NCBI GenBank assembly: GCA_903893815.1
Contig: CAITNS010000066.1
Span: forward strand, 1-64,000
Origin: an uncultured Bacteroidota bacterium
Lineage (GTDB): Bacteria > Bacteroidota > Bacteroidia > B-17B0 > Aurantibacillaceae
DNA length: 64,000 nucleotides
Direction: 5' to 3'
Shown: positions 6,547 to 61,849 of the stretch, one piece after another
Layout of the letters: each line of letters opens with the position of its first letter
Position numbering within the stretch: position 1 is the first letter of the stretch
Notes under the pieces: generated by a model
Told to the model about the DNA's origin: nothing
Seen by the model: the letters and a program-made list of their open reading frames with translations, nothing else
Database searches by the model: none
Program-made: the position numbers and the translations under genes

Positions 6547-7398
6547 ATGAACAAATTATTTCTTGCCACAGGCATTTCTTTATCAGTAATATTTACAGCA
6601 TGCGGAGATAATGCAACCGAAGAAACTGCTGAAAATATTGTTGCTGAAACTCCAAAGGATACAACTCCTATTACTGTTAACGAAGAAACAAAATTCAAAT
6701 TTGATTTTGCTATTGCTAATATTCCCTCTCCAGTGGGTAGTATTAATGAATTATCTAGTTGGGGTGTTGATTATAATAACGAATTACTAGTAGATTCTAA
6801 AAAACAAATTTCAGCAAATAGTGAGTTTTCAAAAGCTTTAGCATTAGGTGTTTACAATATAGATATGTCTTATGCCATGGTAAATAATAAAGGCGAAGAT
6901 ATTTTAAAATACATGAAAACTGTAGTTAAAACTTCTGATGATTTAGGTTTAAAAGGTGCAGTAGATCAAATGGTTGGAAAACGTGCAGAGAAAAATTTAT
7001 CTAATAAGGATTCATTATTAGCCATTTTAGATGAGATTTTCGTAAAAAGTGATTCTTATTTAAGAACCAATGAGCGTATTTATACTGCATCTTCTTTATT
7101 TGCTGGGTCTTGGGTTGAGAGTTTATATTTAACTTGTAAAATCACTGAAAGTGCTACTGATGCTTCTGCAAAAGAAAAAGGATACAAACATTTATGGGAT
7201 CAACGTTTTTATTTAAAAAACTTAACGGATTTATTAAATGATTATAAAGACAAAAAAGAGTGTGTTACTTTAAATGATGAATTGAAAAAAATACATGCTG
7301 AAATAGATGCTATTAAAGATCCTAAAGAAATGAAGGAAGCTAATTTTAAAACTATTTCTGGAAAGATTTACGCCTTAAGAGCTTCTTTAATTAAGTAA
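6547..7398 (+). CDS. Predicted lipoprotein of unknown function
   Basis: The N terminus is a lipoprotein signal with lipobox FTAC (Cys19), followed by an acidic, Thr/Glu-rich linker. This predicts a lipid-anchored periplasmic or outer-membrane protein. The remaining 220 residues look largely alpha-helical, with several Lys/Asp-rich helices and a conserved-looking stretch KHLWDQRFYLKNLTDLLNDY. I know similar helical lipoproteins as hypothetical proteins in Bacteroidota but cannot assign a role. It is monocistronic, with its own promoter and terminator. The reading frame is certain; the function is not. Confidence 0.85.
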   Translation: MNKLFLATGISLSVIFTACGDNATEETAENIVAETPKDTTPITVNEETKFKFDFAIANIPSPVGSINELSSWGVDYNNELLVDSKKQISANSEFSKALALGVYNIDMSYAMVNNKGEDILKYMKTVVKTSDDLGLKGAVDQMVGKRAEKNLSNKDSLLAILDEIFVKSDSYLRTNERIYTASSLFAGSWVESLYLTCKITESATDASAKEKGYKHLWDQRFYLKNLTDLLNDYKDKKECVTLNDELKKIHAEIDAIKDPKEMKEANFKTISGKIYALRASLIK

Positions 7399-7417
7399 TC
7401 TTCAATACTATTTAAGG

Positions 7418-7447
7418 AGCCCTTCGATTATATCGAGGGGCTTTTTG
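7418..7447 (+). terminator. Rho-independent terminator after the lipoprotein gene
   Basis: AGCCCTTCGAT / ATCGAGGGGCT stem (one G-T pair) with a short TAT loop and a T run. Confidence 0.85.
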
Positions 7448-7461
7448 TTTTATGGAATAAT

Positions 7462-7515
7462 AGAACGCAGATAACGCAGATCGACTATGATTATTTATGA
7501 TTTTTAATTAATCAT
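7462..7515 (+). repeat. Half copy of an inverted-repeat dispersed element (copy A)
   Basis: It begins AGAACGCAGATAACGCAGAT, the same arm as the copies at 7561 and 58262, but no matching right arm is seen before copy B starts. Elements with this kind of arm are common between genes in Bacteroidota. This whole gene-free stretch (7399-7775) holds the terminator, this half copy, the full copy B and nothing else recognisable. Confidence 0.6.
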
Positions 7516-7560
7516 TTATTTCTCTAACACTTTTCTCTATTTTAAAATGATGAAAAAACA

Positions 7561-7648
7561 GAACGCAGATAACACAGATTTAACAGGATTAAAACTGATT
7601 TCTTCTTAAAATCTTAATTATCCGCTTCCTCAGCGTCATCAGTGTTCC
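7561..7648. repeat. Full copy of an inverted-repeat dispersed element (copy B)
   Basis: The left arm GAACGCAGATAACACAGATT and the right arm ending CAGCGTCATCAGTGTTC are imperfect inverted repeats of each other with GAAC/GTTC ends. The unit is about 88 bases and contains no ORF. It resembles a MITE or large REP-type repeat. It lies just upstream of a broken restriction-modification gene. Confidence 0.65.
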
Positions 7649-9373: not shown

Positions 9374-9727
9374 TTATTTTTTATTTCGTAAAAAAACTAT
9401 CTCTTCTTTTAATTCAGCGATTAATCTTTCATATAAATCTTTCGAATCTTCACTGTTATTAGTGAAAACCATTTTGGTTGCAGCGTTTCCGCCTTTTTGA
9501 TTATAGTTTTGCTGCAAATAAGTATTTTCTTCGCCTAATAATGTTATAAGTTCTACATCAAGAATTTTACAAAGGTCTTTTAATCTATAAAGAGCCATTG
9601 TGTCTGGATTTTTTTCCATTTGAGAATAAGCTTGCTGTGTAACTTTTAATTTTTTAGCGATGTAATCTTGGCTAAAGTTTTTGCTTTCTCTTATTAACCG
9701 GATATTGTCCGAAACTGATTTTTTCAT
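9374..9727 (-). CDS. XRE-family helix-turn-helix regulator
   Basis: The 117-residue protein has a Cro/C1-type helix-turn-helix near residues 6-62 (NIRLIRESKNFSQDYIAKKL, then VTQQAYSQME) and a helical C terminus rich in Glu/Leu that probably dimerises. It starts from ATG at 9725-9727 and diverges from the membrane methyltransferase gene. The 95-base intergene contains a perfect inverted repeat (9758-9774) that could be its operator. The target genes are unknown; autoregulation and control of the divergent gene are inferred from position only. Confidence 0.85.
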   Translation of the reverse strand: MKKSVSDNIRLIRESKNFSQDYIAKKLKVTQQAYSQMEKNPDTMALYRLKDLCKILDVELITLLGEENTYLQQNYNQKGGNAATKMVFTNNSEDSKDLYERLIAELKEEIVFLRNKK

Positions 9728-9757
9728 TTTATAAATTTACAATTATATATTGTTATT

Positions 9758-9774
9758 TACAAATTACATTTGTA
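9758..9774. promoter_or_regulatory. Candidate operator between XRE regulator and membrane methyltransferase
   Basis: TACAAAT-TAC-ATTTGTA is a perfect 7+3+7 inverted repeat located between the divergent genes, just upstream of the -7 element TAAGTTTG. The size and position suit an XRE dimer site. Binding is inferred. Confidence 0.45.
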
Positions 9775-9784
9775 TGTATTCATG

Positions 9785-9792
9785 TAAGTTTG
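9785..9792 (+). promoter_or_regulatory. Bacteroidota -7 element for the membrane methyltransferase gene
   Basis: TAAGTTTG matches TAnnTTTG, 30 bases before the ATG at 9823. Confidence 0.5.
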
Positions 9793-9822
9793 TTTAAATT
9801 TTAATAACATAATAAAACTAAT

Positions 9823-10320
9823 ATGAATTTTTTAAAAAAACAATTTGACGCCTTAATTTATCTTTTTATAGGGCCATTTACTATTTTATATATAACTCCA
9901 TTATTTTTTAGAAAGTTAGAATCAAATTTTTTTATTCTTCCTAAATATGATCTTTTAGTTATAATAGGCGTAATTTTTATGAATTTTGGTGCTGTTTTGG
10001 CAATTATTTGTAGTCTTATGATGTTTATAAATAAATATGGTTCGGCTATACCATTTGTTAAACCTACCAAATTAGTAAATATGGGACCATATAAATTAGT
10101 AAGGCATCCAATGATGTGGGCATTATTTTTTGTTTTAATAGGTGAAAGTTTAGCTTATAGTTCCTTATTTACTGTTGGATGGTTAGTTATATGGGCTAGG
10201 TTTTCGTCTATATATATAAATAACTATGAAGAGCCATTTCTGATTAGACACTTTGGGCAAGAATACATTGATTATACTAAAAAAGTTCCTAGATGGATTC
10301 CATTTACTAAGCCAAACTAG
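9823..10320 (+). CDS. Isoprenylcysteine/phospholipid methyltransferase family membrane protein
   Basis: The 165-residue integral membrane protein has about four hydrophobic segments. It carries the signature of the ICMT/PEMT methyltransferase family: GPYKLVRHP at 89-97, and a Glu-Glu-Pro motif (136-138) followed by FGQEYIDYTKKVPRWIPF. These form the SAM-binding site in the known family structures. Bacterial members methylate small lipophilic or thiol substrates, and the substrate here is unknown. It stands alone downstream of the divergent XRE regulator and is followed by a short AT-rich gap before the C45 gene. Confidence 0.8.
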   Translation: MNFLKKQFDALIYLFIGPFTILYITPLFFRKLESNFFILPKYDLLVIIGVIFMNFGAVLAIICSLMMFINKYGSAIPFVKPTKLVNMGPYKLVRHPMMWALFFVLIGESLAYSSLFTVGWLVIWARFSSIYINNYEEPFLIRHFGQEYIDYTKKVPRWIPFTKPN

Positions 10321-59796: not shown

Positions 59797-60492
59797 ATGA
59801 AGAAAAAAAAGATAGTTGTTTTTAGTGGAGCTGGAATGAGTGCCGAAAGTGGTATTAAAACTTTTAGGGACACTGGTGGCTTGTGGGAAGAATATAAAAT
59901 TGAGGATGTTGCTACGTTTGAAGCCTGGATAAAGAATCAACCTTTAGTGCTTGATTTCTATAACCAGCGCCGCAAACAGGTAATGAACGCTCAGCCTAAC
60001 GAAGCTCATTTTTTTGTAGCTGAATTACAAAAGCATTTTGATGTACAAGTTATTACTCAAAATATTGATGATTTGCACGAAAGAGCGGGCAGTAAAAAAG
60101 TGTTGCATTTGCATGGTGAAATCATGAAAAGTAGAAGTTCGGTGAGGCAGGATTTAGTTTACGAATTAAAACACTGGGAAATAAAAAAAGGAGATGTGTG
60201 TGAAATAGGATCTCAGTTAAGACCACATATTGTTTGGTTTGGAGAGGCGGTTCCAGAAATGGATAAAGCGTCCGAATTAGCAGAAAAAGCTGATATATTT
60301 ATTACCATAGGAACTTCCTTAAATGTCTATCCCGCAGCTAATTTAATCAATGTGATTGAAGGGCATATTCCTAAGTTTTTGGTAGATCCAGGAGATTTCA
60401 ACTTAGATTATATTAAAAACCTGACTATTATTAAAGCTACGGCTGTAGAGGGAATGAAAGTTCTATCCAAAAAATTAAACGAATTAATATAG
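59797..60492 (+). CDS. cobB: NAD-dependent protein deacylase, Sir2 family (class III-like)
   Basis: Removes acyl groups from lysine using NAD. The 231 residues contain GAGMSAESGI (11-20), FRDTGGLW, TQNIDDLHERAG and HLHGE (catalytic His), then VWFGEAVPEMDKA. The zinc-finger pairs of cysteines found in most sirtuins are missing; the region between HLHGE and VWFGE has only one Cys. ATG at 59797 is used in preference to the TTG at 59758. Confidence 0.92.
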   Translation: MKKKKIVVFSGAGMSAESGIKTFRDTGGLWEEYKIEDVATFEAWIKNQPLVLDFYNQRRKQVMNAQPNEAHFFVAELQKHFDVQVITQNIDDLHERAGSKKVLHLHGEIMKSRSSVRQDLVYELKHWEIKKGDVCEIGSQLRPHIVWFGEAVPEMDKASELAEKADIFITIGTSLNVYPAANLINVIEGHIPKFLVDPGDFNLDYIKNLTIIKATAVEGMKVLSKKLNELI

Positions 60493-60526: not shown

Positions 60527-61789
60527 ATGAGTAATTCATCCACAGTAAAATGTCCTAATTGCAAAACTGAATTTCAGTTAGGGGATGCTATATCTTCTGA
60601 AATAGAAGCTAAAATAAAAGCGCGCTATGTTGAGCGTTTCAATAAAGATCAGAAAGATTTAGCAGACAAAGAAAAACAATACGAATTGCAATTAGAGCAA
60701 TTAAAAAAGCAACAGGAAGAACAAGAAAAAATTATTGCTGAAAAAGTAAAATTGCAAAAAGGTGCATTAGAGCAAGAGGCTATTAAAAAGGCGGCTTCCG
60801 AAATGCAATTGCAAATGGAAATGCTGAACAAAGAACTTTCTGAAAAAGAAACTAAATTAAAAGACAGTCAGGCAAAGGAATTGCAGTTTTTATTAAAGGC
60901 AAAAGAGTTACAAGAAAAAGAAGCGCAGTTTGAATTAACGCTTCAACAAAAGCTTCAAGCCGAAAGAGAATTGTTGTCTGAACAGATTAAAAAACAAGAA
61001 TTAGAAAAAAATTCCATCAAAGAAAAAGATCATCAACTACAAATGATGGAATTAAAAAAACAACTCGAAGACCAAAAGAAGTTAACTGAAGAGATGGTGC
61101 GAAAGCAAGGACAAGGTTCGATGCAAATGCAAGGCGAAGTACAAGAGTTAATTTTAGAAGAATTATTAAGAAGCACTTTTCCATTCGATTCGATTGATGA
61201 AGTAGGGAAGGGTGTGAAAGGAGCAGATGCTATTCACACAGTGCGAAATCCATTAGGTCAGGTTTGTGGGAAAATTATTTATGAAAGTAAAAATACCAAA
61301 GCTTTTGGCGGCGACTGGATTGATAAGTTAAAACATGATATGCGTTCCTCGCAAGCCGATATCGCAGTAATTGTTACTGAGACCATGCCAAAAGATATGG
61401 AGCGTTTTGGAATGAAAGATGGCGTGTGGATTTGTAACTATACTGAAATAAAATCACTAGCGTTTGTGTTGCGCGATAGTTTAATTAAAGTTCACGCGGC
61501 CCAAGCAAGTCAAGAAAATAAAGGTGATAAAATGAGTCTCTTATATTCTTATTTAACAGGAACCGAATTTAGACAACAAATAGAAGCGATTGTTGAAGGA
61601 TTCACTGAGTTGCAATACGGCATACAAAAAGAAAAAAATGCCATGCAAAAGATATGGAAAGAGCGCGAAAAACAATTAGAGAAAGTATTACTTAATACCA
61701 CTAACTTCTATGGCTCTGTAAAAGGCATAGCAGGTAATGCTATTGGCGATATTAAATTGTTAGAACTTGGGGGAGAAGACGAAGTTTAG
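60527..61789 (+). CDS. DUF2130-family protein with coiled coil and nuclease-like domain
   Basis: A 420-residue protein: an N-terminal CPNCKTEF half zinc knuckle, a long Gln/Glu/Lys-rich coiled coil (about 30-205), then a globular domain with KGADAIHTV and GKIIYESKNTK, which resembles a PD-(D/E)XK nuclease core, and SQADIAVIVTETMPKDMERFG. The function of DUF2130 is not established. It starts 34 bases after the sirtuin gene and is likely cotranscribed with it. Confidence 0.88.
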   Translation: MSNSSTVKCPNCKTEFQLGDAISSEIEAKIKARYVERFNKDQKDLADKEKQYELQLEQLKKQQEEQEKIIAEKVKLQKGALEQEAIKKAASEMQLQMEMLNKELSEKETKLKDSQAKELQFLLKAKELQEKEAQFELTLQQKLQAERELLSEQIKKQELEKNSIKEKDHQLQMMELKKQLEDQKKLTEEMVRKQGQGSMQMQGEVQELILEELLRSTFPFDSIDEVGKGVKGADAIHTVRNPLGQVCGKIIYESKNTKAFGGDWIDKLKHDMRSSQADIAVIVTETMPKDMERFGMKDGVWICNYTEIKSLAFVLRDSLIKVHAAQASQENKGDKMSLLYSYLTGTEFRQQIEAIVEGFTELQYGIQKEKNAMQKIWKEREKQLEKVLLNTTNFYGSVKGIAGNAIGDIKLLELGGEDEV

Positions 61790-61812: not shown

Positions 61813-61849
61813 AAAAGCCTGTCAGAATTTAATTCTGACAGGCTTTTTA
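61813..61849 (+). terminator. Terminator after the DUF2130 gene
   Basis: AAAGCCTGTCAGAATT / AATTCTGACAGGCTTT with a T run. Confidence 0.9.

Follow-up and report, generated by a model that had tools for sequence, protein, structure and literature searches.

What DUF2130 proteins do is the question raised by a gene lying in the window, a 64,000-nucleotide stretch of DNA from an uncultured Bacteroidota bacterium. The family, which we take to be the same as COG4487, is spread over many bacteria, plasmids and phages. Our literature search found no functional study of DUF2130, and the papers naming the family give no function. An assignment to the PD-(D/E)XK nucleases may already exist in the literature or among the Pfam clan entries, and a 2012 survey reportedly covered that superfamily. 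Here we follow up a sequence-only reading of the gene by profile searches, structure prediction and comparison of its relatives and their genomic surroundings.

The DUF2130 gene and its distribution

The sequence-only reading had called the protein DUF2130, and a profile search bears this out: PF09903 covers residues 170-414 of the 420-residue product with an E-value of 1.2e-72 (244.8 bits, the cut-off being 26.7), in an open reading frame that runs on the forward strand exactly from 60527 to 61789. Features of the locus are collected in Table 1. Searches of the same protein found no NCBIfam model above cut-off, nothing named in PHROGs, and only chance helix matches when the PDB was searched by sequence.

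Table 1 Features of the DUF2130 locus, in window positions, with the basis of each assignment
Feature	Position	Strand	Basis
Sirtuin (SIR2) gene upstream of DUF2130	59797-60492	+	PF02146, E 1.6e-45; 34-bp gap
DUF2130 gene, 420 aa + stop	60527-61789	+	ORF; PF09903 match; dN/dS
CPxC half zinc knuckle (putative zinc site), C9-P10-N11-C12	60551-60562	+	Conservation in both alignments
Long charged helix, residues 19-189 (171 residues)	60581-61093	+	AlphaFold: single helix
Predicted PD-(D/E)XK nuclease core, residues 203-303	61133-61435	+	Core model; PDB alignments
Motif I, G203-E204-V-Q-E207, first core helix	61133-61147	+	G203, E204, E207 in 33/33 rows
Motif II, putative catalytic Asp D234, start of second core strand	61226-61228	+	Invariance; model
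Motif III, E253-S-K255, end of third core strand	61283-61291	+	Invariance; model
K258, near-invariant basic residue past motif III	61298-61300	+	32/33 rows
D271, on second core helix	61337-61339	+	32/33 rows
C-terminal helices, residues 308-401	61448-61729	+	AlphaFold model (308-343, 346-401)
Inverted repeat then T run, terminator-like, just after the DUF2130 gene	61813-61849	+	Read by eye

The host genome carries a single DUF2130 copy. Compared with L012, the relative of highest identity, dN/dS was 0.013 for residues 19-189, 0.018 for residues 190-345 and 0.014 for residues 346-414, with dS about 1.1-1.3 across the compared residues 19-414, indicating strong purifying selection on the protein. 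The distribution of the family is patchy, with DUF2130 present in 47 of 296 Bacteroidota genomes. Among 41 relatives of the host, it was found in 18 of 20 members of the genus, 4 of 5 other members of the family and 5 of 16 other members of the class.

Predicted nuclease core and active site

KGADAIHTV followed by IIYESKN had been read as placing acidic and E-x-K residues in the order typical of PD-(D/E)XK nucleases, with structure prediction named as a check. An AlphaFold model of the core (residues 192-345, 43 rows) reached a pLDDT of 87.1 and a pTM of 0.79, the values for the full-length model (19 rows) being 76.3 and 0.36. The core model contains helices at residues 193-217 and 263-274 and strands at 222-225, 235-240, 246-255 and 279-284. 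D234, within KGADAIHTV, stands just before strand 2, and strand 3 ends with E253 and K255, the E-x-K of IIYESKN. This matches PD-(D/E)XK enzymes, with an acidic motif II and a (D/E)xK motif III at the structural positions expected.

Alignment of the core model with PDB structures by VIA-align gave as top row the nuclease McrC (6hz4; Z 10.6, rmsd 3.9, 117 residues aligned), with VC1899 (1xmx, Z 10.2), Tk-TIP26 (2czr, Z 10.0, rmsd 6.2), Cdn1/Can2 (Z 8.2-9.2) and Hjc-type resolvases (Z 7.0-8.7) also found, and EndoMS, FokI, Bax1 and several restriction enzymes listed as well. The full-length model returned a similar list, plus the unrelated chimallin at rank 50. Similarity to solved PD-(D/E)XK members spans VIA Z-scores of 7-10.7. 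Plain Foldseek was weak by comparison: against the PDB it gave no match at an E-value of 0.001 or better, its best matches being SPARDA (1.8e-3), the unrelated human Rep15, ranked second (2.9e-3), and Hjc (3.1e-3). Against viral predicted structures it gave nine matches at 0.001 or better, one of them named as an Mrr-type restriction domain.

Conservation was followed in two alignments. The first, of 33 rows, holds relatives from chromosomes, plasmids and one prophage, and comprises a window-like subfamily A (25 rows) and a subfamily B (8 rows) that are about 20% identical to each other. Invariant in all 33 rows are C12, S198, G203, E204, E207, G229, G232, D234, I250, E253, K255, R316 and F348. 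The second set has 51 rows (the window, 18 bacterial and 32 viral loci), overlaps partly with the first and includes near-duplicates. D234, E253, K255, K258 and D271 are kept in all 51 of these rows, and all 12 residues examined are present in 48.

Invariant residues, predicted fold and structural neighbours agree with the order of residues that had been read from the sequence. That DUF2130 belongs to the PD-(D/E)XK nucleases and has kept its active site intact is well supported as a prediction, and naming the residues involved opens the family to direct testing.

Charged rod and CPxC motif

Ahead of the core, the model shows a single helix of 171 residues, corresponding by arithmetic to a rod of about 25 nm (0.15 nm per residue); the rod length class is 134-232 residues in the 25 A-type rows. 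The sequence-only reading had called this segment a long coiled coil. The helix is there, but its hydrophobic heptad periodicity is not above that of shuffled sequences: 582 of 2000 shuffles scored as high, as did 57% in a second test. A coiled coil was rejected for the window protein, with the global periodogram, the lag correlation and the best 42-residue window all within the range of shuffles. Across the family the signal is weak too. The mean z was 0.88 in A-type rows (25 rows, 9 above 1.64), 0.55 in the 8 B-type rows and 0.94 in 49 rows of the second set (14 above 1.64), whereas 11 RmuC proteins, serving as a control for the same test, gave a mean z of 5.4.

What the helix does show is charge pairing. 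Opposite charges at i,i+4 number 31 in the window helix against 15.8 expected, and none of 2000 shuffles was as high. Such pairing exceeded a z of 1.64 in 24 of the 25 A-type rows, in 7 of the 8 B-type rows and in 9 of the 11 RmuC rows, so that it is not special to DUF2130, although the excess in RmuC is milder.

At the N-terminal end of the rod, the half zinc knuckle seen by the sequence-only reading was confirmed as a conserved CPNC at residues 9-12 with no second Cys pair, the cysteines of the window protein being only those at 9, 12, 247 and 303. In the 33-row alignment C12 is invariant and C9 is present in 32 rows, the exception being a row cut by the chosen coordinates. Both knuckle cysteines occur in 49 of the 51 rows of the second set, the other two rows being one trimmed and one truncated; the full L017 ORF carries CPNC. 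Zinc-ribbon models scored below every cut-off against the window protein. We infer that each of two chains may contribute a CPxC half site to a single zinc ion, giving a dimer. In the Rad50 zinc hook, too, a long helical rod carries a CPxC motif at one of its ends. Unlike Rad50, DUF2130 has no ATPase, bears its knuckle at the N-terminus of the chain and has a rod without heptads, and its zinc site is putative.

Comparison with RmuC and other nucleases

In PMC1189080, RmuC is described as an N-terminal membrane helix, a coiled coil, a McrC-like PD-(D/E)XK domain and a further coiled coil, and its closest reported relative is McrC. RmuC (PF02646, COG1322) and DUF2130 have in common an N-terminal element, a helical part of similar length, a core and C-terminal helices, and in both cores the first helix bears a GE motif and is followed by the pattern D...(D/E)xK. 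They differ at the N-terminus, where DUF2130 has its CPxC knuckle and RmuC the membrane helix; reading of the DUF2130 sequence found no N-terminal membrane helix, the CPxC segment being followed directly by the charged helix. They differ also in the helical part, which is strongly heptad-periodic in RmuC but not in DUF2130, so that the RmuC-type coiled coil before the core is absent by the measure given above. An hhalign comparison of the two profiles aligned GE, D and K with a probability of 19.5% and a P of 0.0012, which is not significant alone. The RmuC model found no match in the host genome, and none to the DUF2130 protein at E-values up to 1. By the tests run, DUF2130 is not a member of RmuC; by analogy, it may act like RmuC.

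Replacement of RmuC by DUF2130 was considered and rejected. Among the 296 Bacteroidota genomes, RmuC occurs in 220; both families are present in 33, DUF2130 only in 14, RmuC only in 187 and neither in 62, showing neither mutual exclusion nor association (Fisher p 0.47).

The core fold is common to the archaeal Hjc, McrC and Can2/Card1 nuclease domains and DUF2130 (Z 7-10.6), but identity to the DUF2130 core is only 10-19% over the aligned part. We know of no long helix or knuckle in Hjc. A parallel in layout is offered by the DUF1626-like families, in which, according to passages of PMC1913061, a mainly coiled-coil N-terminal helical region precedes the PD-(D/E)XK core, as a helical region does in DUF2130. 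Those passages describe no CPxC. In DUF1626 the motif III Lys is often replaced, whereas it is invariant in DUF2130.

DUF2130 in phages

A scan of metagenomic viral contigs with the single window sequence gave nothing, and a search with the family alignment found 32 viral contigs encoding DUF2130. Five near-duplicate loci (L079, L085, L087, L093 and L104) were dropped. Neighbours were scanned at 25 viral loci (144 of 164 eligible proteins), L108, skipped by the gene caller, and L109 being left out. Pfam families among the 144 neighbours included DNA_pol_A (9), PDDEXK_1 (5), helicase domains (4 and 3), SNF2 (3), Prim-Pol (3), DNA methylases (3 and 2) and ssDNA-binding proteins (2). The named PHROGs within the 25 most frequent were polymerases, helicases, primases, exonucleases and methyltransferases.

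In 5 of the 25 loci (L084, L088, L096, L099 and L107), DUF2130 and the polymerase are immediate neighbours. DNA polymerase A was found in 19 of 27 viral records, in 18 of them on the same strand as DUF2130; the remaining 8 records had no polymerase A match, and one record has its polymerase A 133 kb off on the opposite strand. In the 14 records that span at least 25 kb, polymerase A lies nearer to DUF2130 than chance by log distance (p 0.003). It is within 5.5 kb in 8 of these 14 (2.9 expected, p 0.002), a cut-off picked after the distances were known, of which the log-distance test is independent. All 19 records with polymerase A gave p 0.0005, a set in which related contigs are not independent and inflate the count.

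On a 71-row tree, 13 viral rows form one clade (support 95/85), and the viral labels require 6 changes against 21.5 in shuffles. Phage carriage is therefore no scatter of host fragments.

Several phage loci bear individual mention. Seven Helicobacter heilmannii prophage records carry DUF2130; in one of them (L050:5443-6711) the gene is labelled hypothetical and lies near a short ParA, a Mu-like morphogenesis gene and a Dam-type methylase. In L086, the phage DUF2130 stands beside a 111-residue protein that looks VRR-NUC-like by eye (9651-9983) and adjoins a 257-residue PDDEXK-type protein (6801-7571).

Proposed function

Since the viral relatives tend to lie among DNA-copying genes, DUF2130 probably trims DNA in copying or repair. 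We consider it reasonably probable that the family is a nuclease for DNA intermediates of replication and recombination, sometimes recruited to defence. D234 and E253, together with E204 or E207, would bind a divalent metal in the core, which would cut DNA. A shared zinc knuckle would make a dimer in which the two nuclease domains lie at the far ends of the ~25 nm rods, and the enzyme would, as has been proposed for RmuC, process DNA that is branched or broken while it is being replicated or recombined. In the host bacterium it would serve as a chromosomal upkeep gene; phages would carry it within replication modules, and plasmid-borne copies may help to restrict invading DNA. If DUF2130 does act on such intermediates, it would be a second, cytosolic family beside the RmuC type, which would explain its carriage by phages beside DNA polymerase.

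A broader picture, which we put forward as speculation and hold to be doubtful, is that of a general DNA tool: a soluble single-chain nuclease on a rigid charged rod, paired by zinc, that would set two cutters at a fixed distance on branched DNA, carried in phage replication modules for long enough to have a lineage of its own there and reused against invaders on plasmids. Such a tool would be unlike both RmuC and Rad50-Mre11 while combining parts of both ideas.

Plasmids and defence

The main alternative, possible if on balance unlikely, is that DUF2130 is mainly an anti-phage or anti-plasmid nuclease that cuts incoming DNA, a soluble counterpart of ShdA from the Shield anti-phage system. PMC10270631 describes ShdA, which has an RmuC domain, as degrading DNA in vitro and protecting alone, and RmuC-domain ShdA in phage defence is also tabulated in PMC10952713. 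The likeness consists in the RmuC-like layout of DUF2130, ShdA being a single protein with in vitro nuclease activity. ShdA is, however, membrane-bound and from Pseudomonas, and the DUF2130 protein matched none of the families of PADLOC-DB 2.0.0 (2023 library) at E-values up to 1.

A defence role would also suit the patchy distribution in Bacteroidota and the 44 plasmid records matching DUF2130. On plasmids, 14 DUF2130 regions were compared with 14 control stretches of the same plasmids by product names, scored unblinded. On a strict reading (restriction-modification, OLD plus UvrD, SIR2, NB-ARC, AbiE and DUF262), restriction or defence genes occurred in 6 of the 14 regions against 1 of 14 controls, a difference that leans towards defence but is non-significant (Fisher p 0.077), and a looser count that adds toxin-antitoxin, Fic, caspase and DNA methylase genes gave 9 against 5 of 14. 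In two Chryseobacterium plasmids DUF2130 directly precedes type I methylase and specificity genes, and in an Aliarcobacter plasmid it directly precedes an ATP-dependent endonuclease and a UvrD helicase. Separately, on Bradyrhizobium plasmids L175, L176 and L178, DUF2130 is preceded on its own strand by an AAA family ATPase gene, at a distance of about 150 bp.

Chromosomal surroundings argue against a primary role in defence. Across 38 of 40 fetched loci (the gene caller missed DUF2130 in L114 and L146), no neighbour family recurred in more than 5 of the 38, and the families that did recur were ordinary. A PADLOC scan of 120 neighbours from 20 chromosomal loci matched 93 families, against 42 for 118 proteins from 20 shifted controls (two left out, one for length), and among the matches listed there was no clear defence enrichment near chromosomal DUF2130. 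Those matches include at least five neighbour proteins fitting the methyltransferase-like model mad2, as well as at least one type I restriction subunit and at least one specificity subunit, these last two being in keeping with a defence nuclease. The presence of DUF2130 in nearly all members of the host genus and its carriage by phages themselves also speak against this alternative. 'DNA-maintenance or defence', as the sequence-only reading had put it, was the right pair of options; the viral surroundings favour replication and recombination, and the nuclease for replication and recombination intermediates is the reading that we retain.

A structural DNA tether or spacer, in which the core binds without cutting while knuckles and rods bridge two DNA segments, appears very unlikely: a long helix with an end knuckle does suggest bridging, and the rod length class is conserved enough for a spacer, but the full conservation of the active-site D, E and K, with the near-invariant K258 and D271, is hard to explain without catalysis.

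The upstream sirtuin

The gene had also been described as cotranscribed with a NAD-using deacylase. A sirtuin gene does lie on the same strand immediately upstream, and the order transaldolase, sirtuin, DUF2130 is found in 10 of the 11 nearest loci, within what the contigs cover (L005 shows only the end of the sirtuin; L007 keeps DUF2130 without it). Sirtuin and DUF2130 HMM matches are separated by less than 770 bp in 13 of the 18 members of the genus that carry DUF2130, and in 1 of the 4 such family members from other genera. Co-transcription is thus probable in the host lineage, the order being confined to the host's bacterial family. No support was found for a functional link with the deacylase outside that lineage: the order is found in none of 8 more distant loci (L013-L020), and by listed coordinates the pairing occurs in none of the 5 DUF2130 genomes outside the family. 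That DUF2130 is a partner of the sirtuin, deacylated by it or acting in the same pathway, is accordingly highly improbable, for all the short gap and the shared order among near relatives, given these distant loci, the DUF2130 gene of L007 and the occurrence of sirtuins in 37 of 41 relatives whatever their DUF2130 status.

Sirtuins usually carry four zinc-binding cysteines. These are absent from the window sirtuin, which has a single Cys (residue 135), and the nine syntenic relatives compared have one or two.

Two N-terminal types of DUF2130 occur in close relatives. Residues 1-80 of L005:115-1371 resemble L006 (6001-7257) at 85-100% per 20-residue block and the window protein at 30-65%, and the later L005 blocks resemble the window at 85-100%; this mosaic could stem from a chimeric metagenome contig. 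Genomes G091, G176 and G338 each contain two copies of DUF2130 whose profile scores differ clearly, showing that two forms of the gene can coexist.
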